NCBI GenBank assembly: GCA_013360395.1 | Contig: JABWBQ010000033.1 | Location: 1-45,773, forward strand | Reading direction: 5' to 3' | DNA length: 45,773 nucleotides | From: Flavobacteriales bacterium | GTDB taxonomy: Bacteria > Bacteroidota > Bacteroidia > Flavobacteriales_F > PHOS-HE28 | Part shown: in pieces, positions 1 to 17,554 of the stretch | Numbering within the stretch: the first letter of the stretch is position 1 | How the letters are laid out: each line of letters starts with the position of its first letter | Notes under the pieces: generated by a model | Told to the model about the DNA's origin: nothing | Seen by the model: only the letters and a program-made list of their open reading frames with translations | Databases searched by the model: none | Translations under genes and position numbers: made by a program

Positions 1-1
1 G

Positions 2-1135
2 GTCGGCGATGCGGACAGTGATGGTCTGTGTGATGCGGTCGATCCATGCCCGACGCTTGCCAACGTTGAGCCCGGGGATGCCTGCGACGACGGCGACGCG
101 TGCACCATCAACGATGTGGTCAATGGCGGTTGCGGCTGCGCGGGAACACCGGTGGGCGATGCGGACAGTGATGGTCTGTGTGATGCGGTCGACCCCTGCC
201 CGACGCTTGCCAACGTTGAGTCCGGGGATGCTTGCGACGACGGCGACGCGTGCACCATCAACGATGTGGTCAATGGCGGTTGCAGCTGCGCAGGAACACC
301 GGTGGGCGATGCGGACAGTGATGGTCTGTGTGATGCGGTCGATCCCTGCCCGACGCTTGCCAACGTTGAGCCCGGGGATGCCTGCGACGACGGCGACGCG
401 TGCACCATCAACGATGTGGTCAATGGTGCTTGCGGCTGCGCAGGAACACCGGTGGGCGATGCGGACAGTGATGGTCTGTGTGATGCGGTCGACCCCTGCC
501 CGACGCTTGCCAACGTTGAGCCTGGGGATGCCTGCGACGACGGTGACGCATGTACGATCAATGATGTGATCGATGGAGGTTGTAGCTGCGTGGGAGTTTC
601 GGTGGTCATACCAGGAACGCCTTCGGGCATCACAGGTCCATCGGCTGCAGGCACCGGCGGGGTCCACACGTTCACCGCGGCTCCCGTCACGGACGCCACC
701 GGATATATCTGGAGTACGCTGCCAGCCGATTGGAGCGGGTCGTCGACGAGCATCTCGATCGACTACACGGTGGGCACGGTCCCCGCACAAGTATGCGTAC
801 GCGCTGAGAACTTGGGTTGTCCGGGCGACAGCCTCTGCGTGTGGGTGGTTGACATCAACACCGGGCTGGCCGATGAAGACCATGGAGCGCCCTGGTTCAA
901 CATCCATCCGAATCCCTCGGATGGCACCTTCCTGGTCACACCGTCCGGACCGCTTACCGGTGACATTGACATCCGGGTCATCGATGCCTTGGGTCAATTG
1001 GTGTCGACTTCTCTTCTGGTGGTGGATGGCCAACCTCAGCGGATCGACCTTCAAGAGCAAGCCGAGGGCATCTACTTCCTCCGCGCGAACCGGGGGAAGG
1101 AGGTCAGGATGTATCAGCTGCTCATCCACCGCTGA
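2..1135 (+). CDS. T9SS-exported Cys-rich repeat surface protein (5' end outside window)
   Basis: The frame is open from the left edge, so the N-terminus and any signal peptide are missing. The visible part starts with four tandem 50-residue modules of GDADSDGLCDAVDPCPTL...CDDGDACTINDVV...GCGCAGTPV type. They are rich in Asp and paired Cys, which suggests a disulfide- or calcium-stabilised stalk. A PKD/Ig-like segment follows (roughly nt 605-850), then a C-terminal type A sorting domain (nt about 890-1132) with the usual N-P-S-DG...F...D..G..V pattern and a GIYFLR strand near the end. Such domains direct export through T9SS and attachment to the cell surface. The next gene begins 5 nt downstream, so the two are probably co-transcribed. 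Function beyond a surface or adhesin-like role is unknown. Differences between modules are mostly at third codon positions of this frame, which confirms it over the two other frames that are also open. Confidence 0.85.
   Translation, partial: VGDADSDGLCDAVDPCPTLANVEPGDACDDGDACTINDVVNGGCGCAGTPVGDADSDGLCDAVDPCPTLANVESGDACDDGDACTINDVVNGGCSCAGTPVGDADSDGLCDAVDPCPTLANVEPGDACDDGDACTINDVVNGACGCAGTPVGDADSDGLCDAVDPCPTLANVEPGDACDDGDACTINDVIDGGCSCVGVSVVIPGTPSGITGPSAAGTGGVHTFTAAPVTDATGYIWSTLPADWSGSSTSISIDYTVGTVPAQVCVRAENLGCPGDSLCVWVVDINTGLADEDHGAPWFNIHPNPSDGTFLVTPSGPLTGDIDIRVIDALGQLVSTSLLVVDGQPQRIDLQEQAEGIYFLRANRGKEVRMYQLLIHR
5..604 (+). repeat. Four tandem 150-bp in-frame repeats
   Basis: Units lie at 5-154, 155-304, 305-454 and 455-604, each exactly 150 bp (50 codons). 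Units 1-3 are nearly identical. Unit 4 diverges over its last third (GVSV instead of GTPV), as expected for the terminal unit. The array runs to the left edge, so the true copy number is unknown. The spacing and coding frame make this a protein repeat, not a CRISPR or satellite. Confidence 0.95.
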
Positions 1136-1140
1136 TCCCC

Positions 1141-3273
1141 ATGCACACCGGCCGTGGTCATCGCTCATGGCACCGCCGCTCGCGGCGGATCGGTCCGCCG
1201 CTGGTGGGTGTGGCCCTGCTGGCCCCGCTCGGCCTCTGCGCCCAGGGCATCGCCATCAACGAGACCGGTGCGCCGCCCAACCCCTTTGCGCTGCTCGATG
1301 TTCAGGGCAGTACAGCGGACAAGGGCGTGCTGCTGCCCCGGATGAGCAGCGCCCAACGCACCGCCATCGCGGGCCTGGCCGCGGCGGAAGAGGGGCTCAC
1401 CGTGTACGACACCACCACCAAGGGCTACTGGTATTGGGACGGGGCGCAATGGGTGCAAATGGCCGGCAGTGGCGCGGGGTGGTCCTTGACCGGGAATGCG
1501 GGAACGGTGCCGGGAACGCACTTTCTGGGCACTTTGGACAATGTGCCACTGGAGGTTCGCGTGAATGGTGAACGAAGTGCGTGGATCGGAACGGATCCTG
1601 CTCCAAGCACAGGGTCCAACACTTCTTGGGGTTATCAGACCCTCCAGGCCAATGTATCGGGTGTCGCCTGCACTGGGATAGGAATGCGCGCCTTGAGTTT
1701 GAACAGCACAGGCTCGTATAACACGGCTGTTGGGATGCGCGCGTTGGACCTGAACATTTCGGGGTCAGAGAATACTGCGCTCGGAGCTCAATCCCTGCTG
1801 TCCAATACCATCGGATCAGGCAATACCGCGATCGGTGCAACAAGCTTGTTCTGGAACATCCTTGGTGTTCAGAACACAGCTGTTGGTCAGAATTCGATGG
1901 CCAGCAACACGAGTGGGTCCGACAATACTGCGCTTGGGTCGAACGCCTTGTTCATCAATGTTACGGGGAATAGTAATGTCGCAATAGGTCGGGATGCATC
2001 ACTAGCAACATTGTCTGGGTCGGACAATACCGCGTGTGGTCGTTGGAGTATGCGATCGAATGTGGCTGGTTCAAGAGCCACCGCTATTGGATCACGGAGC
2101 ATGTTGTACGCGAACAGTTCGGCTATCGGATTCATCAATCACAATGTGGCAGTGGGATACGAAGCGCTCCGTGGCTCCTTGACTGCATCGGCAAATGTTG
2201 GTCAATGGAATACCGCTATTGGGTATCAGAGTATGTTGGAGTGTACATCAGGTGAAGCAAATACAGCGATAGGCGCTGCGAGCTTATCTAGTTGCACATC
2301 CGGTTCAATGAATGTAGCAGTTGGATATTTCGCATTGCTCGAGAGTAGCACTGGCTCTTCCAATACAGCTATAGGATATAGTTCTTTAGCTGTTAACACA
2401 GTTGGAGATCAGAACACCAGTGCCGGAGCGCAAGCACTTTTCCAGAATACGACAGGAAGTATGAATAGTGCATTTGGCGTATCTGCATTGGCGAACAATA
2501 GCATTGGAAATTCGAATACTGCATACGGTTGTGATGCTCTACGAGTGAATGATACTGGCGTTGGGAATGTTGGTGTTGGCCATAGGGCGAATCACTGGAA
2601 CTATAATGGTTCAAACAATACGATTATTGGTAGCTATGCTGGTGACGGAGTCGTCGCTCACTCAAAGAGTGGCTGTGTTTTTCTCGGTTACAGAGCGGGC
2701 TATTTCGAGCTGTCGAGCGACAAGCTGTATGTGGAGAACAGTGATTCAACGACCCCGCTGATCTACGGCGAGTTCGACACCGACATGGTGCGCGTGAACC
2801 ACAACCTGGGGGTGGGCTGCAGTGCCTTCGGCGGCGGCACCAAGGTGCTGGCCCTGGAGAACGGTACGCCTCCGGTGGCGCCCATCAACGGGGTGCTGCT
2901 CTACGCCGATGAGCCCAGCAGCGAACTGAAGGTGATGGACGAGGCCGGCAACGTCACCACCCTTTCCCCCCACCACTTCAGCCTCATGCGCCCGTCGGAG
3001 CCCATGGCCTGGTCATACTGGTCCGAGAACCGTGCGCTGGACCGGCGGATCAATGTGGACATGCTCCGCGTGGTGCGGGTGGTGGAGCGGATGAGCGGCG
3101 AGCGGATGGTGCTCGAGGCCACGGGGGATGGGGAACCGCTGCCGGCGCGTTCGTGCGAGGGAGAAGGGGAGCTGGAGGTGTTGCGCACGGAGTTGCGGGA
3201 GGCTCAGGAACAGATCAGACTTCTCCAAGAGCGGGTTGGGGCCTTGGAACCAGGAACACCGCAGGACCGATGA
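1141..3273 (+). CDS. Adhesin-like protein with 17-residue NTAxG repeats
   Basis: This 710-residue protein has a basic N-terminus and hydrophobic segment (about 19-34), consistent with export. Residues 36-105 form the segment common at the start of Bacteroidota surface proteins (IAINETGAPPN...LLDVQ...GVLLPRM...YYWDGAQW). Residues 160 to about 510 are about twenty repeats, mostly 17 residues long, with consensus N-T-A-[IVL]-G-x2-[SA]-L-x2-N-T-x-G-S-x. They resemble the repeats of YadA-type trimeric adhesin heads, although classic YadA repeats are shorter. The C-terminus (about 670-705) is a predicted coiled coil (LEVLRTELREAQEQIRLLQERV), which fits trimerisation. No T9SS sorting domain or YadA anchor is visible. 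It starts 5 nt after the upstream stop, and its stop overlaps the next start as ATGA. The repeat tract is AT-richer than both flanks. The adhesin role is inferred. Confidence 0.8.
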   Translation: MHTGRGHRSWHRRSRRIGPPLVGVALLAPLGLCAQGIAINETGAPPNPFALLDVQGSTADKGVLLPRMSSAQRTAIAGLAAAEEGLTVYDTTTKGYWYWDGAQWVQMAGSGAGWSLTGNAGTVPGTHFLGTLDNVPLEVRVNGERSAWIGTDPAPSTGSNTSWGYQTLQANVSGVACTGIGMRALSLNSTGSYNTAVGMRALDLNISGSENTALGAQSLLSNTIGSGNTAIGATSLFWNILGVQNTAVGQNSMASNTSGSDNTALGSNALFINVTGNSNVAIGRDASLATLSGSDNTACGRWSMRSNVAGSRATAIGSRSMLYANSSAIGFINHNVAVGYEALRGSLTASANVGQWNTAIGYQSMLECTSGEANTAIGAASLSSCTSGSMNVAVGYFALLESSTGSSNTAIGYSSLAVNTVGDQNTSAGAQALFQNTTGSMNSAFGVSALANNSIGNSNTAYGCDALRVNDTGVGNVGVGHRANHWNYNGSNNTIIGSYAGDGVVAHSKSGCVFLGYRAGYFELSSDKLYVENSDSTTPLIYGEFDTDMVRVNHNLGVGCSAFGGGTKVLALENGTPPVAPINGVLLYADEPSSELKVMDEAGNVTTLSPHHFSLMRPSEPMAWSYWSENRALDRRINVDMLRVVRVVERMSGERMVLEATGDGEPLPARSCEGEGELEVLRTELREAQEQIRLLQERVGALEPGTPQDR
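1618..2670 (+). repeat. About twenty 51-bp (17-codon) repeats
   Basis: Degenerate 51-bp units inside the adhesin-like gene. Most are exactly 17 codons; two near nt 2077-2208 are 22 codons. They are conserved as protein (NTAxG) but diverged as DNA, unlike the near-identical 150-bp units just upstream. Right-hand boundary is approximate. Confidence 0.8.
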
Positions 3274-3950
3274 GCACTAGACATCCATCTCGATCGACGC
3301 TTGCAGAGCGAGCAGGTTGGACCGGACCCCTGCTGCTGCTTTGGGCGGGTCTTCTTCTTGGGGCGACCGCGTGCACCAAGTTCGACCGGCTGGAGAAGGA
3401 AGGGTGTACGGAGCAGGGCTACGCCAACTACGATCCATACGCCGAGCTGCCGGACGGTAGTTGCTGTACCTTCAGGGACGCGGGTTCACGCATCTGGCGG
3501 GGTACCGTGGTCGATACGATCACGAACTATGGTTTCGAGATCCCGTATGTGGCTGCGAGGATCGTGGGCGAGCTGGAGGGTCCCTGCTTGACCGAGCGAG
3601 GGTCGTTCTGGTCCGTGCAGGATGACCACTGTGGTCAGGGGCCATGTGTCTTGGACCTGGGCGTGTATTCCAATGGCACGTCACGCACCGTTGACGCCTA
3701 CGGGATCGATGATCCGGTTGGGTGCTGCATCCCGTCGATCGTATTTCCTCCCAATGTGAACTACATCAACGTGACGTTCAAGCTGACCGCGTTCAATGGA
3801 AGCACGCCTGTGCAGGTCGTTGAACAAGACGCCCGTTTCGATAACAACGACAACTCCGCCTATTTCGGCGCCATACCCGTTGAAAGCCCGCAGATCGGGG
3901 TATTGGTGGACAGCCTGAACGTCAAGGTGCTCGACGTGGAAGTGCATTAG
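3270..3950 (+). CDS. Probable lipoprotein, unknown function
   Basis: The start is the ATG at 3270, which overlaps the upstream stop by 4 bp (ATGA); longer in-frame starts would lie deep inside the upstream gene. The 226-residue product has a hydrophobic stretch (about 19-34) ending in GATAC, so Cys35 is a plausible lipidation site. Immediately after comes a GC...NYDPYAELPDGSCC segment, a Cys motif frequent in Bacteroidota secreted proteins. The rest (about residues 60-226) is Cys-containing and beta-rich, with no family I recognise. Tight coupling to the adhesin-like gene upstream and the barrel-like gene 10 nt downstream suggests a shared envelope function. The lipobox is not perfect (Ala rather than Leu at -3). 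Confidence 0.7.
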   Translation: MSTRHPSRSTLAERAGWTGPLLLLWAGLLLGATACTKFDRLEKEGCTEQGYANYDPYAELPDGSCCTFRDAGSRIWRGTVVDTITNYGFEIPYVAARIVGELEGPCLTERGSFWSVQDDHCGQGPCVLDLGVYSNGTSRTVDAYGIDDPVGCCIPSIVFPPNVNYINVTFKLTAFNGSTPVQVVEQDARFDNNDNSAYFGAIPVESPQIGVLVDSLNVKVLDVEVH

Positions 3951-3960
3951 CAAGGTTCCA

Positions 3961-6264
3961 ATGGGTCTCCTCCGCTCAACTCAAACGTGTGCTCTGTGGT
4001 TCGCCTTGGTCGGAACCTGCGGTATCCCGGTGTGCCCTGCCCAGTATTTCGGGCTCTCTGTGGAAGGCGGAATGCGTGAGGTCCTTTTGGATCGGCCATT
4101 GAGCAAGGTGGAGGAACACTACACGGACCATGCCTTGTGGAAATTACCGGTCGGCATGTCGGGTCAGTATGGTCGTCTTGGGCTCCTGCTTGATGGCAGC
4201 CCGATCAGCCGAGTGGTTTCCTTCAATTGGTCGGGGGCGTTCTCATTCGAGCGGTTGGACGGCAAATTCCGCTTCGCCTCGAACGAACTGCCGTATTCAG
4301 CAGCGCAGGAAGACCGTGGCTTTCGCCGCTTGGATGTGATCCGGCTCGAAAGTGCTCTCGGGATGAAGGTGCGTTTGTTCAAAGGCCTGGTCGTCCGCCT
4401 GGGAGCACTGCTGAGCACGCCTGTTTACGGAGCACAGCGAACGATTTGGACCCGTGTGATCACAGACGAGAACGGTCTACGGCATGAGCATGATCTGGAC
4501 GAGAATACAGAGGCGTCCGATGACCTGTACTATGGTTCCTTTGGCGACGGAATCGTTCCTGCGGGGTATGCCGAACTAGCTTATGAGTTCAAGAGAGGAG
4601 TTGGCCTACAGATCAGGGGTACCTGTAGTGTGGAAAGATCGAGCAGCATAGGAGGTCGGTCAGGGTCTTTCAGCGTCGGCTGGTCGACCTACGCGGTCGG
4701 TGCCGGTTTCACCTTCCGATTGGTCCCATCGGACATGCCGCGTTCCAACTGGGGCGGGGTCAAACCCATGAGCACCGAGGAGGTGCGTGAACTGCGGAGG
4801 GCGCGGAAAGCGACCAACGCCCCGGTTCAGGACACCATGCAAATGGTCCAAACGCCATCAACTGCACCAGGTCCGCTGCCCCTCCAAGCCGGTGTGGATG
4901 CCCCGCTTCCCGTGACCCCGAAAGACACGGTGGTCGCCTTTGCGGATACGAGCCGGAGCGACCAAGCGAGCTCTGATGCCCCAAAGGCGTCCCCCTCACT
5001 TCCCGCAACTGCGGACCCTGTTCAGGAAGAGATGGCGCCGCAGGTGGTGCCGACCCCAAGGTCCGAGGCGCGTGCGGTGCAGGATGCGCAGTACGCAGGA
5101 TGTGCGGTGGCCTTGGAGCGGACGGATGGCAGTGTCACCCAGGTGCGATCGGAAGAGGTCGGTTCGGCGCCTCCAGCAAGTTCGACCGCCCTCCGTGTGC
5201 AGTGGGCAGGGCGCGCCGATGGGAAGCGCTGGCTTTGGTTGCGCCTGCTTCCGGCATCAGGTGCGCCCCCTCCGCTCGTGCGGGCCACCCTGGCCTGGGG
5301 CGATGGGCGGCGCATGGTGATCGCCTCCGACCTACGGCCTGCGGAGTCGGTAGTGCGCCCGGATGGCAGTGCGTGGCATGGCGTGCAACTGACCGACCAG
5401 GAATGGCGCACCATAGGTGAACAGATGCCGAACGAACTGGCGTTGATCACCAAGTCCGGCCCCTTGCAGGTGGTGTGGATGGCGGAAGAACGCAGGGCGC
5501 TTGGGGAACAGCGTGCCTGTCTGGACCAATGGTTCCTCGCAAATTCTTCCGCCGCGATACCGACGGCAGCACGCAGCCCCATCGGGTCAGGTACCATGCC
5601 ACCCGTGCAGGCGGAACACCCCGGGGATACCAAGCAACAGATGGACCTCTCGGGAGGTGCTGCAGAGACCAGTGTGGCGGCTCCGCCGCCTGGTCAACAC
5701 GTTCAACAGGGTTCTTTGTCGACCAATGCTGGCACAACGACCAGATCTCCGGACGAAGGAAGACTGGCCTACAAGGTGATCACGGAACGCCCGGAGGACT
5801 TCGCCGCGGTCAGCGTGTATACGGTGCTGCATGTGTTCAGCTCATCCACCGCACTGGACACCTTCAGGGTGGTGACCCGCCACGGACCCATGGGTGGGTT
5901 GAAACATGAGCTCTGGATCAGCACCCTGGCAGGAGCCACGTATCGGGAGGAGCTATACCCGGTCCCTTTGCAAGGTGCCTTGGATGCGGGCAGGATCGCC
6001 GGCGAGGAGATGGAGATGCTGCGTGTGCGCATGGCCCTGGCACCTGGTGCATTCCAGCCCAACCCGATCTCCGTGGACGATTGGCGCCTTTCTGGAGCCC
6101 GGGCGGGCCGCGACCTGCTCTATGATCTGTCCATCGCCGAGTTCGATTCCGTGTTCATGGAGAAACCAGCGATCGGTTTTCAGTTCCAGAGCGATGCGGA
6201 GACGCGGAGGGAGCTGGTGTACTCCAACACCCTGCGCCGCATCGTGAATGTCGCTCCCCAATGA
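3961..6264 (+). CDS. Outer-membrane beta-barrel-like protein with long C-terminal extension
   Basis: The 767-residue product has a signal peptide (cleavage plausibly after VCPA, about residue 27). Residues 28 to about 255 contain alternating hydrophobic/aromatic strands with glycines, as in small outer-membrane beta-barrels (for example VRLFKGLVVRLGALLS and STYAVGAGFTFRL). A Pro/Ala/Thr/Ser-rich linker spans about 256-380. A soluble segment (about 380-520), a second low-complexity linker, and a C-terminal region (about 600-767) with no recognised family follow. It lies 10 nt after the lipoprotein gene and 9 nt before the TonB-domain gene, so it is probably in one operon with them. The barrel assignment is inferred from composition, and no function is proposed. 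Confidence 0.6.
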   Translation: MGLLRSTQTCALWFALVGTCGIPVCPAQYFGLSVEGGMREVLLDRPLSKVEEHYTDHALWKLPVGMSGQYGRLGLLLDGSPISRVVSFNWSGAFSFERLDGKFRFASNELPYSAAQEDRGFRRLDVIRLESALGMKVRLFKGLVVRLGALLSTPVYGAQRTIWTRVITDENGLRHEHDLDENTEASDDLYYGSFGDGIVPAGYAELAYEFKRGVGLQIRGTCSVERSSSIGGRSGSFSVGWSTYAVGAGFTFRLVPSDMPRSNWGGVKPMSTEEVRELRRARKATNAPVQDTMQMVQTPSTAPGPLPLQAGVDAPLPVTPKDTVVAFADTSRSDQASSDAPKASPSLPATADPVQEEMAPQVVPTPRSEARAVQDAQYAGCAVALERTDGSVTQVRSEEVGSAPPASSTALRVQWAGRADGKRWLWLRLLPASGAPPPLVRATLAWGDGRRMVIASDLRPAESVVRPDGSAWHGVQLTDQEWRTIGEQMPNELALITKSGPLQVVWMAEERRALGEQRACLDQWFLANSSAAIPTAARSPIGSGTMPPVQAEHPGDTKQQMDLSGGAAETSVAAPPPGQHVQQGSLSTNAGTTTRSPDEGRLAYKVITERPEDFAAVSVYTVLHVFSSSTALDTFRVVTRHGPMGGLKHELWISTLAGATYREELYPVPLQGALDAGRIAGEEMEMLRVRMALAPGAFQPNPISVDDWRLSGARAGRDLLYDLSIAEFDSVFMEKPAIGFQFQSDAETRRELVYSNTLRRIVNVAPQ

Positions 6265-6273
6265 CCCATCCGT

Positions 6274-8490
6274 ATGTGGTCCTGGACAACACGCCTTACC
6301 GACCGGATCATCGCACTGATCGATGGCGGCGCCTTCTTTCGCCGGCCCTGGCGCACGGGGTATGCGGTGATCGCCGTGCTCCTTGCCGTCGCCGGGGTGC
6401 TGTGGGCCTTGGCGCTGGTCTCGATCGGACTGTACGGGCTGGTGCGGCTGTACGTTGAACAGCATTACGTGATCGCGGTGCAAGGCGTCCGCGCGGCGGT
6501 CCTGCTGGCGACGGCCATCCTGTTCATAGCCATGGTCCTTGCCCGTTTGTGGTGGATGCGCAAGGAGGACATCGAGCGGGATACGAAAGGCCACAAGGTC
6601 TATATCGTGGGACCGGTGGTGGCACATCTCGTCCGGATCATGGGCGAGTCGTCCGGCCTGCTCGTTGGCTTCTTCGGGCTCCTGGCCTATCCCGTGCTCA
6701 TGCCGGCACGGGACCTGCTCGAAGAAGTGCCACTGCTCCATGTCCTGAGCGGTCTGTTTTCCTTCGACTGGACCTGGCAGGTGATCACCGCGCCGATCGG
6801 CGGCTTCCTCATCATCCTCTTCAGCCGCTGGGTGGGCGATTCCATGGAGGTGCTGTTCGCCATCGCGAACAACACCAAGCATGTGGCCATCAGCGCTGGT
6901 CAGCAACCCGTGGATGCGACAGGTGCGGAGCGCCGCTTGTTCACATGGGAGGGGGCCTTGCTTGGCCTGCTGTTCTACCTGGTGCTCGCCCTGCCCGTGC
7001 ATGCCACCCTCATCACATTACCATGTATTGGACTCCTGGCCTTCTGTCATGTCAAGGGTCTGCGGATCGCAGCATTGGTCTGGGTCTGTCTATCTGCCAT
7101 CCTTTTACTCAGGTGTCTCATGCGCCTGTTCGTACTGGCGGATGAAGATGCGGTGGCCGAATACTACTTGGACGCTGAGCCCGTGCTTCTGATCTTCTTA
7201 TTCATGGCGGTCTGCATCGGCGTTGCCGTCACCCTATTGGAACGTTCCGGTCGGAGCGTCATCAACCTTTCAACACAACAGGTCTGGGTCATCGGTTCGT
7301 TCTGCGCATTGCTCTACGCCCTTCATCCCATGGTCGGTATGATGCGCGAGGCAGGGAGGCGACATGAACTGACCAGCCAGGAGCGGCAGCAGATGGAAGC
7401 GCTGTTCTTCACCTACCAAGGCCGGAAGTTCGGATTCAGGGAACACAGCGGCGTCGACACGGCCACGACCTTCACCGTACCTGCACCGCAGTACACCGCT
7501 GACCTTTATGGAACCATCCGGATCAAGCACGACCTTTATGTATCGGGCAGAAAGCTCACATCGGAGTTCACACTGGGTCATCGGGCGATCGCGTTGCCGG
7601 ATACCTTGGTCTATACAAGTGGGGGTGACCAATATGTGGTCAGCTACCTTACGGACAGCATCCTGTTCGATGTCGGGGGCAGGGGGCGCATGCGGAGGGC
7701 CGTGGCGATCGCGGTTGATGCCTACACCCGGTCGATCGTGTCCGCCCGGCAAGCACAGGCCGTTAGGCTGCGCCTGCTGCGCGACAGCTTGGAAGCTGAA
7801 GTGGACACCTTGACCGGGCGATACACGGGTATTGACTGTGGTACGGATCAATGTTTCGTCTGGTTCGACGTGCAGGAAGATACCGGGATCGTGAAGCGTT
7901 CCTTCCACTGTCCATCCGATATCATCGATGGCTATCCGATCAAGGCATTGCCCAAGGATGGGGATGTATGGCGGCTGATCGTTCGGAAGACGATATCCGT
8001 TGTTGATGGTGACCCAAGGGCGGGCCATATCACGCACATGGACCAGTTGGTCGGGCTACAACCGGTGATGCGATCAGGCCAACCGGCGATGGAGAACGCT
8101 GAGCGAGTGGTCACGCCGATCGAGGGTCGACCCAATGACCCAGGAGCGGTCAAGGTGGATCCCGGATACAAGATCTTCGGGTTGGACGAAGTTGATGTCG
8201 CTCCAGAGTTTCCGGGCGGACGGTCGGGCTTGAGGGCCTACCTGGCCAGCCGGCGATATCCGGAAGCGGAGAAGAAGGCTGGTCATGTTGCGAAAGTGCG
8301 GGTGCATTTTGTCGTTGGAAGTGATGGTGCACCAGCGAACATCAAGGTCCTCAACTCCGGCTACCCGGGGTTTGATGCGGAAGCTCAACGACTGATGCGA
8401 GCCATGCCGAAGTGGGTGCCCGGAAAGCGCCGAGGTAGCCCGGTAGCTGTCGCCATGACGGTAACGATCGACTTCCGGCTGAACGAGTGA
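6274..8490 (+). CDS. Multi-spanning membrane protein with C-terminal TonB domain
   Basis: The 738-residue product starts with about 350 residues containing roughly seven to eight hydrophobic helices (first about 30-58 and 68-93). A soluble, presumably periplasmic region spans about 360-630. Residues about 632-738 match the TonB C-terminal domain: FPGG...L..YL...YP, then V.FVV.SDG, then a G..GFDAEA....MPKWVPGK block. Standard TonB proteins have a single N-terminal helix; here the domain is fused to a large membrane module. TonB C-terminal domains contact TonB boxes of outer-membrane receptors. Whether this protein transduces energy, senses a signal, or uses the domain structurally cannot be seen. 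ATG 6274 fits the 9-nt spacing to the upstream gene. Confidence 0.75.
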   Translation: MWSWTTRLTDRIIALIDGGAFFRRPWRTGYAVIAVLLAVAGVLWALALVSIGLYGLVRLYVEQHYVIAVQGVRAAVLLATAILFIAMVLARLWWMRKEDIERDTKGHKVYIVGPVVAHLVRIMGESSGLLVGFFGLLAYPVLMPARDLLEEVPLLHVLSGLFSFDWTWQVITAPIGGFLIILFSRWVGDSMEVLFAIANNTKHVAISAGQQPVDATGAERRLFTWEGALLGLLFYLVLALPVHATLITLPCIGLLAFCHVKGLRIAALVWVCLSAILLLRCLMRLFVLADEDAVAEYYLDAEPVLLIFLFMAVCIGVAVTLLERSGRSVINLSTQQVWVIGSFCALLYALHPMVGMMREAGRRHELTSQERQQMEALFFTYQGRKFGFREHSGVDTATTFTVPAPQYTADLYGTIRIKHDLYVSGRKLTSEFTLGHRAIALPDTLVYTSGGDQYVVSYLTDSILFDVGGRGRMRRAVAIAVDAYTRSIVSARQAQAVRLRLLRDSLEAEVDTLTGRYTGIDCGTDQCFVWFDVQEDTGIVKRSFHCPSDIIDGYPIKALPKDGDVWRLIVRKTISVVDGDPRAGHITHMDQLVGLQPVMRSGQPAMENAERVVTPIEGRPNDPGAVKVDPGYKIFGLDEVDVAPEFPGGRSGLRAYLASRRYPEAEKKAGHVAKVRVHFVVGSDGAPANIKVLNSGYPGFDAEAQRLMRAMPKWVPGKRRGSPVAVAMTVTIDFRLNE

Positions 8491-8559
8491 CCAACCCGGC
8501 CTGCCCGTGGGCCCGTCCCCTCTGGCCAGCTCAATGCCTTGACACCGATGTAACGGGGC

Positions 8560-8925
8560 GGAGATGTTATGGTTGATGGAGGAGTGGTCGAATTGGCCAG
8601 CGACCATGAAGATGACTGTTCGGATGGTGTCGAAACGGGTGTAGCCCCTGGCCTTTCGCTTGGTGGCTTGGAAGAGCCCGTTGATCGTTTTGAGGGAGTC
8701 CTTGGAGAGGCGTGAACGGGTCCAGGCCACGATGCCATCGCTATGGCTGCGGACCGATGCAGCCTCCTTCTTCATGGGTTCCACCTTCGATCGCATCACA
8801 TAGGAACACCTGTGGTGCGGTATGGCCCGGACCACATTGGGCTGTTTACGGTCCATGATCGCCCGTAGCTGCTCCTTGTGAAGCCATGCACCAGCCGTGC
8901 GGTTGGTGGGCACCGGGGCGCTCAT
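8560..8925 (-). pseudogene. Remnant of an ISL3-family transposase (C-terminal part)
   Basis: The minus strand encodes a stretch resembling the C-terminal end of ISL3-family transposases: LHKEQLRAI, then RSKVEPMKKEA...HSDGIVAW..SRLS, then INGLFQATKRKARGY and a final IFMVAGQFD. Recognisable sequence covers roughly 8570-8885. The N-terminal two thirds of the enzyme are absent. The usual LLEGIN segment, which I recall as carrying the last acidic catalytic residue, reads SLKTIN here. The frame runs on past the expected stop. No terminal inverted repeats were recognised. This is an inactive relic. Confidence 0.7.
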
Positions 8926-9211
8926 CGAAAGCCGGACCGGACCGGCGGCCGGGGTTCTGCACGGCGCATCCCTTCCGGGGAATGCCTACAGGCTGCCTCG
9001 AAGAGCCTCGAACGGATGGCGTGCGCCGCTATCATTCGTCCGGACGAGGCGCGCCGAAGAGAGGCTACTGGATCGAAGTGTCCGATCGAGGAGCACCAAA
9101 GCAGGGGTGAATGAGCGCAAGCGATGACCGCTGTGCTCCTTGCTCATCCACGCCGTGCGCCGTCGCTGAAGTTATGGCTCAAGCGACCGGAACGAGGTTC
9201 TTCGAGGTGCT
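8926..9211. other. Non-coding stretch between transposase relic and DPP IV gene
   Basis: Short overlapping frames exist on both strands but none resembles a protein I recognise, and no promoter box or hairpin stood out. The 69 bp between 8491 and the relic are likewise featureless. It may be scar DNA left by the decayed insertion sequence. Confidence 0.4.
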
Positions 9212-13313: not shown

Positions 13314-13781
13314 CTACACGGTCCGGTCGGCTCCGCCGCGCAGCGTGATGAGCAGTTGGTCCAGCACCACCCGGTCGATCGGCAGGCTCATGTCCCCGGC
13401 CTGCGCACCGGCCAGCGGCAGCCAGCGGAACACCTCCTGGTCGGCCCCCTCGCCGATGCCCGCGAACGGCTCGGTCACCACCCGCAGCGCGCCCGGATCG
13501 GCGATGCGGAAGCGGTAGTACACGCTCACCACCTGCATCGGCGTGCTGTGGAAGGCGCTCTGCTGGAAGAAGTCGGTGGTGTAGTAGTGCTCCACGTCGA
13601 AGGCCTCCACGCCCAGCTCTTCGCGCACCTCGCGCACCAGGCAGTCCTTCAGGCCCTCGCCGTACTCCAGCCCGCCGCCGGGGAACTTCGTGATGCGCTG
13701 CCCGCGGATCAGTTCGTCGGCCACGAGCACATGCCCATCGTGCACCAGCAAGCCGTAAACGCGGAGGGTGAAGTGCTGCAT
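13314..13781 (-). CDS. NUDIX hydrolase
   Basis: The 155-residue product has a complete NUDIX box at residues 36-58 (GGLEYGEGLKDCLVREVREELGV), matching GX5EX7REUXEEXGU, with Mg-binding glutamates at 51, 54 and 55. These enzymes hydrolyse nucleoside diphosphates linked to another moiety; sequence alone does not give the substrate. No signal peptide, hence cytoplasmic. It starts 3 nt after the mnmD stop, so translation is probably coupled. Confidence 0.92.
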   Translation of the reverse strand: MQHFTLRVYGLLVHDGHVLVADELIRGQRITKFPGGGLEYGEGLKDCLVREVREELGVEAFDVEHYYTTDFFQQSAFHSTPMQVVSVYYRFRIADPGALRVVTEPFAGIGEGADQEVFRWLPLAGAQAGDMSLPIDRVVLDQLLITLRGGADRTV

Positions 13782-13784
13782 GGT

Positions 13785-14474
13785 TCAGTTCGGCTTGCGG
13801 CCACGCAGCATCTCCCGCTTGCCCGGCGGGCCGGTGAGCTTCTCCACCCGGAAACCGACGGCCTCCAGGGTGCGGCGCACCTCGCCCTTGGCGCTGTACG
13901 TCACCAGCACGCCCCCGGGGCGCAGCGCCCGGAAGAGCCGCGCGAACACATCCGCCGTCCACAGCCCGGGCTGCTTGCTCGGCGCGAACGCGTCGAAGTA
14001 CACCACGTCATAAGCTTCGGTGTCGGTGAGCGCTTCCACGCCGGCCTGCCGCCAGGTGAAGCGGAAGCCCCCGAGCCCTTCGGTAAGGGCGCCGGGCGCA
14101 GCGGTCATCGCGTCGAGCCACGCGTCGGTGAGGGTGGGCACGCCGCATTGCGCGCAGTGGTCCACCGCCTGAAGCAGCGGCCGCGGCAGCGGATGCGGCT
14201 CCAGAGCCGTGTAGCGCACGCGGCATTTGCCCTCCACCACCTGCAGCCAGGTGAGCAGCATGTTGAGGCCCGTGCCCAGGCCCACCTCCAGCACGTCCAC
14301 GTCAGCCTTGTCCACCGCGCGCAGCCCGTTCACGATGAACACATGCCACGATTCCTGCAGCGCGCCGTGCAGGCTGTGGTAGGGCTCGTCCATGGATGGG
14401 TCGCGCAGCGTGTTGGAACCGTCGGCCGTGCGCACCAGCTGCAAGTGGGACCGGTCATGGAGCGGGGCGTTCAC
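13785..14474 (-). CDS. mnmD: tRNA mnm5s2U methyltransferase (MnmD, stand-alone MnmC N-terminal domain)
   Basis: The 229-residue product matches the methyltransferase half of MnmC: TADGSNTL (17-24), YHSLHGALQESWHVFI (32-47), SAM-binding EVGLGTGLN (63-71) and YFDAFAPSKQPGLW (159-172). MnmD methylates the wobble uridine of certain tRNAs (nm5s2U to mnm5s2U). The oxidoreductase half of MnmC is absent, as in other stand-alone MnmD proteins. I place the start at GTG 14474, because the family N-terminus precedes the only nearby ATG (inside PSMDEPYH); a second GTG about 40 nt downstream is possible. Only 17 bp separate this start from the divergent BNR gene. Confidence 0.88.
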   Translation of the reverse strand: MNAPLHDRSHLQLVRTADGSNTLRDPSMDEPYHSLHGALQESWHVFIVNGLRAVDKADVDVLEVGLGTGLNMLLTWLQVVEGKCRVRYTALEPHPLPRPLLQAVDHCAQCGVPTLTDAWLDAMTAAPGALTEGLGGFRFTWRQAGVEALTDTEAYDVVYFDAFAPSKQPGLWTADVFARLFRALRPGGVLVTYSAKGEVRRTLEAVGFRVEKLTGPPGKREMLRGRKPN

Positions 14475-14491
14475 GCGGTAAATTTGGGCAC
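14475..14491. promoter_or_regulatory. 17-bp divergent start region with TAAATTTG box
   Basis: TAAATTTG at 14479-14486 is a perfect match to TAnnTTTG for the plus-strand gene, ending 5 nt before its ATG at 14492. Read on the minus strand the same bases give CAAATTTA, a 6/8 match ending 4 nt before the mnmD GTG at 14474. The transcription start of each gene should therefore coincide with its start codon, and each -33 region lies inside the other gene. Confidence 0.6.
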
Positions 14492-17400
14492 ATGCGCACG
14501 ATCCCGCTCGCCCCCCTCGTCCTCGCCGCTCTGCTGCCCTTGCTGTCCGTCGGTCAGGACTGGGTGCGGATGTACCATGACCCGGCCGTGCCGCTGGACG
14601 AGGTGGAGCGGGCCCACGCCGACCACTTCGCCGGTCGCGCACAGGAGCGCGGCAAAGGCCGCAACGTCTTCGCCCGCGAGGCCTGGTTCTGGTCGCAGCG
14701 GCTGTACCCCGAAGGGGTGCGGCCCGATCCCGGCGCCTATGCCCGTGCCTGGCGGCAACTGAAGAGCATGCCGGTGGCGGCCACACCCAAGAGCGCGAGC
14801 TGGCAACCGATCGGACCCGCCGCCTGGGATTCCTGGAGCTACAACCCCGGCAACGGACGCGTGCACACCGCCGCCGTGTCGCCGCTCGACGCGAACACCA
14901 TCTACGTCGGCACGCCCTCCGGCGGCCTGTGGCGCACCACCGACGGCGGCGTCAACTGGAACGCGCTGGGCCAGGACCTGCCCACGCTCGGCATCACCGG
15001 CATCGCGCTGCACCCCACGGACGCCAACACCCTGTACATCGCCACGGGCGACGGCTATTCGCGCGACACCTATGCCTTGGGCGTGCTGAAGAGCACCGAT
15101 GGGGGCGCCACCTGGAACGCCACCGGGCTCGACTGGGATGTGCATCAGGTGCGCACCACGCGCCGGCTGGTGATGCACCCCACCGACCCGGACGTGCTGT
15201 TCTGCGCGGCCAACAGCGGCCTCTACCGCACCACCGACGCCGGTGCCAGCTGGCAGCGCGTGGCCCTGGGCAGCTTCTTCGATGTGGCCTTCAAGCCCGG
15301 CGACCCCGGCGTGGTGCATGCCACCAGCGACCAGTACCACCGCAGCACCGACGGCGGGGCCACCTTCACCACGATCACCAGCGGCCTGCCCGCGGCGGGC
15401 CTCGTGGTGCGCATGGCCCTGGCGGTCACCCCGGCCGACCCACAACTGGTGTACCTGCTGGCCGGACGCGAGGATGACGGCGGCTTCCGCGGCTTGTACC
15501 GCAGCACCGACGGCGGCACCACCTTCACCACGCGCAGCAACACGCCCAACATCATGGGCTACTCGGAGACCGGCAACGACAGCGGCGGGCAGGCCTGGTA
15601 CGACCTGGCCCTCGCGGCCGACCCGGTGAACGCGGGCACGATCTACGCCGGCGGCATCAACGTGTGGAAGAGCGCCAACGGCGGCACCACGTGGACGAAC
15701 ATGAGCCACTGGACCTGGCCCAGCGCCGTGGGCTATACCCACGCCGACATCCATCACCTGCAGATCGCCAACGGCCAGCTCTACTGCGGCAGTGACGGCG
15801 GCTTCTTCCGCAGCCCCAACGGCGGTGCCGATTGGTTCGACCTCAGCGCGGGCCTGTCGGTGTCACAGGTCTACCGCATCGGTGTGTCCGGCATCCAGCC
15901 CGAGCTGGTCATGGCCGGGCTGCAGGACAACGGCAGCATGCAGTGGGAGAGCGGGGCCTGGATCCATGTGCAGGGCGGCGATGGCATGGAAGGGCTGGTG
16001 GACAAGGACGATCCGCAGGTGCGCTTCTGCAGCGCGCAGTACGGATCGATCTACCGCTCGTTCGATGGTGGCCAGACCTTCGGAAGCGTGAGCTTCACGA
16101 TCCCCGAGGAAGGCGCCTGGGTGACGCCCTACATCCAGGACCCCAGCGTGCCCGGCCGCCTCTACGCCGGGTACAACAACCTCTGGCGCAGCAACGACCT
16201 GGGCGATACGTGGACCAACATCAGCAACATCACCACCGGACGGAAGGTGCGCGCCATCGCGGTGGCCCCCACCGATCCGGACGTCATCTACTTCAGCAAC
16301 GACGGCGCCCTGCGCCGGAGCACCGATGGCGGGACCACCTGGGACATCCTCACCGGTCTGCCCGCCCAGGCGCTTACCGCCATCGCCATCGACCCCACCG
16401 ACGCCGATCGCGTGGCGGTGACCTGCTCCGGCTTCCGCGAAGGGGTGAAGGTGTTCCGCAGTGTGGACGGTGGCGACACGTGGACCGACCACAGCGGCAA
16501 CCTGCCCAACGTGCCGGTGAACACCGTGGTGCTCACCGGCATCAACGACGGCCTGTACGTGGGCACCGACCTGGGCGTCTTCTATCGCGACGCCACCCTC
16601 GGCAACTGGCAACCCTTCGCTCAGGGCCTGCCCGCCGTGGTGGTGATGGAACTGGAGCTGGACGGCACCGGCCAGTGGTTGTACGCGGCCACCTATGGCC
16701 GTGGGGTATGGCGCACACCGGTGTACAGCCCCAGTGGCGATCCCCCGGTCGCAGGCTTCCGCACGGAGAGCGAGGTGGTCTGCGGCGGCGGTGCGGTCAC
16801 CTTCCACGACCTGGCGCTGGAGGCCGCACCGGGGTGGAGCTGGCAGTTCCCCGGCGGCAACCCGGGCACCAGCACCGATGCCTCGCCCGCGGTGACCTAT
16901 CCCGCGAGCGGCTCCTACACCGTGAGCCTCACGGTGAGCAACGCCTTCGGCAGCGATACGGAGACGCGCTCGGTGGACGTGCAGGTGCGGCCTGAGGAGA
17001 TCGAGGTGGCGCTGGTGTTCGACCAGTATGCGGGCGAGAGCGCCTGGAGCATCGTGGATGACAACGGTCTCGTGGTGGCCACCGGAGGCCCGTACAACGG
17101 CCAGTTGAACACCGCCACGCTCACGGCCTTCGCCTGCCTCGACACCGGCTGCTACACCTTCATCATGCACGACGCGTACGGCGACGGCATGTGCTGCAAC
17201 GCGGGCAACGGCAGCTACACGGTGACGGGCGCGTTCACGGGCTTCATCGCCGATGGCGCGAGCTTCGGCGTGGAGGAGAGCACGCCCTTCTGCGTGGACG
17301 CCTCGGTGGGCCTGCCCGCGCGATCGGCCCCGGCGCTGCGGTTGCGCAGCGATGGCGATGGGGTGTACACACTGCTCGGCGCTCCCGCGGGCGAGCGCTG

Positions 17401-17554
17401 GTGGGTGCTGGACGGGCTGGGGCGTGTGGTGCGCGACGGCCTGCTGGCACCGGCCGGTGGCGAACTGCGCGTGGACCTGCGTGACGCCGCGGCGGGCACC
17501 TACACCCTGCGCGGCGCCGGTGGTGCGGGCGTGAAGCTCGTGCGCGGCTACTGA
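14492..17554 (+). CDS. Large T9SS cargo protein with BNR/Asp-box propeller and PKD domain
   Basis: The 1,020-residue product has a signal peptide (RTIPLAPLVLAALLPLLSVGQ), which fixes the start at 14492. Residues about 105-745 are a repeat region of sortilin/VPS10-like BNR type, with many Asp-box motifs such as STDGGATW, TTDGGVNW, SPNGGADW and SVDGGDTW between segments like HPTDANTLYI. A PKD domain follows at about 752-830 (FRTESEVVC...WQFPGGNPGTS...TVSLTV). Then comes a Cys-containing domain (about 835-945; HDAYGDGMCC) and a short type A sorting domain (about 950-1020) ending GVKLVRGY. BNR propellers occur in sialidases, but no sialidase catalytic set was recognised, so carbohydrate or protein binding is the safer reading. 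The 3' end overlaps the convergent OmpA gene by 7 bp. Confidence 0.85.
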   Translation: MRTIPLAPLVLAALLPLLSVGQDWVRMYHDPAVPLDEVERAHADHFAGRAQERGKGRNVFAREAWFWSQRLYPEGVRPDPGAYARAWRQLKSMPVAATPKSASWQPIGPAAWDSWSYNPGNGRVHTAAVSPLDANTIYVGTPSGGLWRTTDGGVNWNALGQDLPTLGITGIALHPTDANTLYIATGDGYSRDTYALGVLKSTDGGATWNATGLDWDVHQVRTTRRLVMHPTDPDVLFCAANSGLYRTTDAGASWQRVALGSFFDVAFKPGDPGVVHATSDQYHRSTDGGATFTTITSGLPAAGLVVRMALAVTPADPQLVYLLAGREDDGGFRGLYRSTDGGTTFTTRSNTPNIMGYSETGNDSGGQAWYDLALAADPVNAGTIYAGGINVWKSANGGTTWTNMSHWTWPSAVGYTHADIHHLQIANGQLYCGSDGGFFRSPNGGADWFDLSAGLSVSQVYRIGVSGIQPELVMAGLQDNGSMQWESGAWIHVQGGDGMEGLVDKDDPQVRFCSAQYGSIYRSFDGGQTFGSVSFTIPEEGAWVTPYIQDPSVPGRLYAGYNNLWRSNDLGDTWTNISNITTGRKVRAIAVAPTDPDVIYFSNDGALRRSTDGGTTWDILTGLPAQALTAIAIDPTDADRVAVTCSGFREGVKVFRSVDGGDTWTDHSGNLPNVPVNTVVLTGINDGLYVGTDLGVFYRDATLGNWQPFAQGLPAVVVMELELDGTGQWLYAATYGRGVWRTPVYSPSGDPPVAGFRTESEVVCGGGAVTFHDLALEAAPGWSWQFPGGNPGTSTDASPAVTYPASGSYTVSLTVSNAFGSDTETRSVDVQVRPEEIEVALVFDQYAGESAWSIVDDNGLVVATGGPYNGQLNTATLTAFACLDTGCYTFIMHDAYGDGMCCNAGNGSYTVTGAFTGFIADGASFGVEESTPFCVDASVGLPARSAPALRLRSDGDGVYTLLGAPAGERWWVLDGLGRVVRDGLLAPAGGELRVDLRDAAAGTYTLRGAGGAGVKLVRGY

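Follow-up and report, generated by a model that had tools for sequence, protein, structure and literature searches.

Where two divergent genes are separated by only a few base pairs, the question arises of how both can be transcribed, and whether a single promoter core is read in the two directions. Such an arrangement is found in the window analysed here, a stretch of 45,773 nucleotides that makes up an entire contig (C7) of the 3.68-Mb genome of an uncultured Flavobacteriales bacterium (G000). On the minus strand (13785..14474), mnmD starts with GTG and encodes a 229-aa product that scores 188 bits against the NF033855 MnmC2 model (cut-off 136) and also passes Pfam PF05430; with the curated NCBIfam score exceeded, this product fits an MnmD/MnmC2-type tRNA methyltransferase. 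A NUDIX protein gene (13314..13781, minus strand; Pfam) lies 3 bp downstream of mnmD and, judging from this short distance, is probably co-transcribed with it. The opposite gene (14492..17554, plus strand), referred to here as BNR, encodes a BNR/sortilin-like, PKD-containing protein of 1020 aa that passes the Sortilin-Vps10, BNR and PKD models of Pfam. An N-terminal signal peptide is apparent by eye in the translation, and its description as a secreted protein rests on this feature because a type IX secretion tail, which was also looked for, was not recovered. The two start codons, GTG at 14474 (minus strand) and ATG at 14492 (plus strand), enclose the 17-bp sequence GCGGTAAATTTGGGCAC. The initial annotation had named both genes and described a promoter core at a distance of 5 nt from the ATG and 4 nt from the GTG; the names, the coordinates, the 17-bp gap and both spacings hold on the sequence. 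Elsewhere in the contig, the GC content of positions 1-9000 is 59-62%, compared with 65-70% in the remainder, and codon bias is less clear there; this segment is possibly acquired DNA.

In the BNR direction, the octamer TAAATTTG (14479..14486, plus strand) is separated from the ATG at 14492 by 5 nt, a placement expected for leaderless transcription. Promoters of the Bacteroidota sigma-ABfr type consist of a -33 TTTG and a -7 TAnnTTTG element (PMC6847099, PMC7366714). TAAATTTG is an exact match to the latter and the sole one in the window, where TANNTTTG likewise occurs once, below the chance expectation of 2.6. The 4-5 nt spacing of F. johnsoniae would place the transcription start at the ATG itself. 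Unlike the full sigma-ABfr promoter, the locus has no -33 TTTG element between 14441 and 14478 in the BNR direction and none visible on either strand; F. johnsoniae likewise has this element only in weak form or lacks it (PMC6847099). In the weight-matrix profile of the genome itself, TAAATTTG scores 11.1.

The placement of this element can be compared with that of similar elements across the genome. In Flavobacterium johnsoniae, the -7 element is reported to lie 4-5 nt from the transcription start (PMC6847099). A 1.14-Mb sample of the genome (L009-L028, L059-L078, L206-L225 and the window) was used, comprising 576 upstream regions of genes called by a simple codon-usage script, with approximate start codons. 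In this sample, TAnnTTYG is sharply concentrated at spacings 4-7, where leaderless genes would be expected from the F. johnsoniae distance, with 48 sites at these four positions versus approximately 1.3 per position further upstream, one site at spacing 3 and none at spacings 0-2. Over the whole genome, TANNTTTG-N5-ATG is present 21 times versus once for the reversed pattern, and TANNTTYG-N5-ATG gives 54 matches versus 6 for its control, while spacing 12 gives just 13 versus 5. Given this accumulation of TAnnTT(T/C)G sites close to start codons in the 1.14-Mb sample, the assignment of BNR, at spacing 5, to a real leaderless-type class as a typical member is well supported by sequence patterns, and the perfect -7 element initially proposed for the plus-strand gene is borne out.

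Variants of the element were counted by mismatch at spacings 4-8, an approach that replaced an iterated weight matrix, which was dropped because it fixed the first base as T and scored CAnnTTTG too low. The first base proved loose (C, 19 observed versus 1.1 expected; G, 15 versus 1.3), A at the last position showed no enrichment before genes (1 observed versus 0.5 expected), and the genome's own consensus reads TAcCTT(T/C)G, variable in its first base, or [TCG]AnnTTYG in relaxed form. Of 172 promoter-like sites, only 2 carry AA at the nn positions, the dinucleotide that renders the core palindromic. As a separate observation, the relaxed form is found 4-8 nt before the start of approximately 83 of the 576 sampled genes (~14%; ~6 expected), and leaderless placement appears to be more frequent in this genome than in Bacteroides and F. 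psychrophilum, for which leaderless or short-leader mRNAs are reported at 3.7% and 5.5%, respectively. The first base is often C or G at leaderless spacing in this genome, whereas T is near-invariant in reports on F. johnsoniae. A clear excess of TANNTTYG-N5-ATG is also seen in G082 (260 versus 134 control) and G086 (112 versus 30), which represent other families of the same class; most remaining families of that class lack it.

Read backwards, the same 8 bp become CAAATTTA (14479..14486, minus strand), a probable weak -7 element of mnmD located 4 nt before the GTG. The AAATTT core is common to both directions, giving the shared near-symmetric core that characterizes prokaryotic bidirectional promoters. 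In the mnmD direction, neither TAnnTTTG nor the relaxed [TCG]AnnTT[TC]G is matched; from the relaxed form, the final G (to A) is the single departure, since the genome readily accepts C as the first base. Because sites ending in A show no enrichment, the mnmD element misses the local consensus by one base; under this consensus, a fully two-way octamer would be CAAATTTG, one base from that of the window. The T that the window carries at the first octamer position is the base that would favour BNR. In the profile of the genome, which is over-strict on the first base, CAAATTTA scores poorly (-5.7). In G008 and G005, mnmD starts at an ATG one codon further on, at spacing 7 and still in the leaderless class. 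The near match initially claimed for mnmD is a weak one, owing to the missing final G; mnmD probably starts from the TAAATTTG octamer read backwards.

Conservation among close relatives, a comparison that the initial annotation had suggested for the gap, is consistent with such dual use. The 26-bp block GCGGTAAATTTGGGCACATGCGCACG (14475..14500) is identical in five genomes in which the two genes adjoin (G000, G025, G033, G008 and G005). The G025 locus is near-identical, with an mnmD that is 100% identical, and the block remains unchanged down to 62% protein identity in G005, where the flanks are 35-44% identical. Eleven bases of the block are not required by the BNR -7 element or its ATG, the rare AA inside the -7 element is kept in all five genomes, and CAAATTTA is the only mnmD promoter candidate common to them over ~330 bp. 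The mnmD tree places a further relative, G026, within this clade as a derived branch; in G026, a gene on the mnmD strand (L110, G026:C50:20994-23060; a ~630-codon open frame, ~2 kb) has been inserted between mnmD and BNR. Each gene there has a separate element at the usual distance: BNR keeps its own in place (TAGCTTTG-GGCACC-ATG), and mnmD is preceded by CACCTTTG, with a spacing of 7 nt to its ATG. In this one case, AA changes to GC and the AA/GCGG features are gone.

These comparisons bear on the possibility that the promoter works one way only, with TAAATTTG serving BNR, the palindrome being incidental, and mnmD being transcribed either from a promoter within the 5' part of BNR or through an alternative sigma factor. 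mnmD could indeed use another promoter because about half of the genes have no recognisable -7 element, and its own strand lacks the final G. Moreover, TACATCCG sits 88 bp upstream of CAAATTTA in G000, G025, G033 and G008, and flavobacteria are known to have other forms of the -7 element (SM5 TAnnTTGY, PMC9723704). However, TACATCCG lies within the BNR coding sequence and is missing at that place in G005, the mnmD-side bases GCGG and AA are conserved only where mnmD adjoins, and clear promoters for both genes are present in the same gap in three other lineages. A one-way promoter is therefore considered a doubtful, though serious, explanation.

Elsewhere in the genus, the mnmD-BNR gap of G019, G015 and G010/G058/G063 contains TAnnTTYG abutting CRAAnnTA, that is, two facing -7 elements, one per gene. 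In G019, the arrangement is a perfect 16-bp palindrome whose halves equal the genome's consensus -7 octamer TACCTTCG. Just eight such sites exist in 45 genomes of the genus. Because five of these eight fall in the mnmD-BNR gap and are spread over three distinct branches of the mnmD tree, the pattern supports overlapping divergent promoters as a feature of this gene pair that is either ancestral or has arisen repeatedly; its tightest version, as read from sequence, is that of the window's clade. When -7 elements of mnmD were counted automatically in relatives, 16/32 had one, a figure used only loosely because some starts were misassigned (e.g., G019). The pattern TANNTTNGCNAANNTA has no match in the window's own genome, so abutting -7 elements are no general device there. 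Ordinary divergent pairs in G000 have outward-facing elements, and because the gaps of the tightest pairs in which both elements are leaderless measure 34 and 37 bp, the 17-bp gap leaves room for superimposed elements only. The initially proposed shared promoter core accordingly finds support in overlapping divergent promoters across the genus, with use of the 8-mer by mnmD being probable only. It may be proposed, tentatively, that two leaderless genes came to depend on one superimposed -7 element that evolved from an ancestral abutting pair, with T or C at the first base setting the directional balance. The other three abutting head-to-head sites, L202 (G011), L203 (G005:C170) and L205 (G029), lie beside other genes. 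Two divergent pairs with 11 bp between start codons (L014:2983-2995 and L078:3770-3782) display a -7 element in one direction only, overlapping the start codon of the other gene.

The 17-bp gap is likely to be a bidirectional promoter in compact form, built on the sigma-A element of Bacteroidota (TAnnTTTG). Housekeeping RNA polymerase would recognise TAAATTTG and start BNR at the ATG or one base before (14491/14492), yielding a leaderless message. Presented as CAAATTTA on the other strand, the AAATTT core would allow polymerase to bind the other way less efficiently, starting mnmD at about its GTG (14474/14473), and output would probably be biased toward BNR. The core would hold one polymerase at a time, with both genes expressed independently at ordinary activity.

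The initial annotation had gone further, suggesting that two polymerases could not bind simultaneously and that the two genes may be mutually exclusive in expression. The first point agrees with the steric exclusion known at such promoters (PMC12825309). A regulatory switch, in which polymerases compete for overlapping -7 elements that cannot be occupied at once, would also find a parallel in E. coli, where transcription one way, when strongly activated, can repress the opposite direction (PMC12825309). Nevertheless, basal transcription was too low for competition at all five E. coli bidirectional promoters tested (PMC12825309), no activator site is seen at the mnmD-BNR gap, the adjacency is split by the insertion in G026, and 19 of the 33 mnmD genomes examined have no adjacent BNR relative within the flanks examined. 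Such a switch is thus very unlikely, since the lack of basal competition in E. coli and the absence of adjacency in many relatives leave mutually exclusive expression unsupported. It is also very unlikely that the conserved block serves as an operator for a transcription factor instead of a polymerase site: its conservation reaches beyond the -7 element and its G019 counterpart is fully palindromic, but palindromy in the window ends at AAATTT, the G019 halves are themselves consensus -7 octamers, and the element varies in sequence between lineages while staying -7-like.

The bidirectional promoter favoured here belongs to a type already known in bacteria. In E. coli, prokaryotic bidirectional promoters have a near-symmetric core that is read both ways, with starts most commonly 18 bp apart (PMC12825309, PMC10268837), and divergent starts 7-25 bp apart on opposite strands define the category. 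The mnmD/BNR gap resembles those described by Warman, Grainger et al. in its pseudo-symmetric core between divergent genes and in its starts, predicted from motif spacing to lie 17-19 bp apart on opposite strands. It differs from the E. coli examples in using TAnnTTTG instead of TATAAT and in having start codons at the predicted start sites; moreover, while the sequence shows the site, the class to which it belongs in the genome, how it is conserved and the head-to-head variants of relatives, its two-way use, bias and start sites are predicted. It is probably a tight Bacteroidota example, and a literature search of limited reach found no description of bidirectional promoters in this phylum. 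The finding does not establish a coupling of tRNA modification to secretion. If confirmed, it would extend bidirectional promoters to the divergent promoter code of Bacteroidota and would provide a natural series of abutting, superimposed and separated elements at one locus on which the evolution of two-way promoters could be tested. It also points to a bacterial genus with unusually frequent leaderless-type genes.
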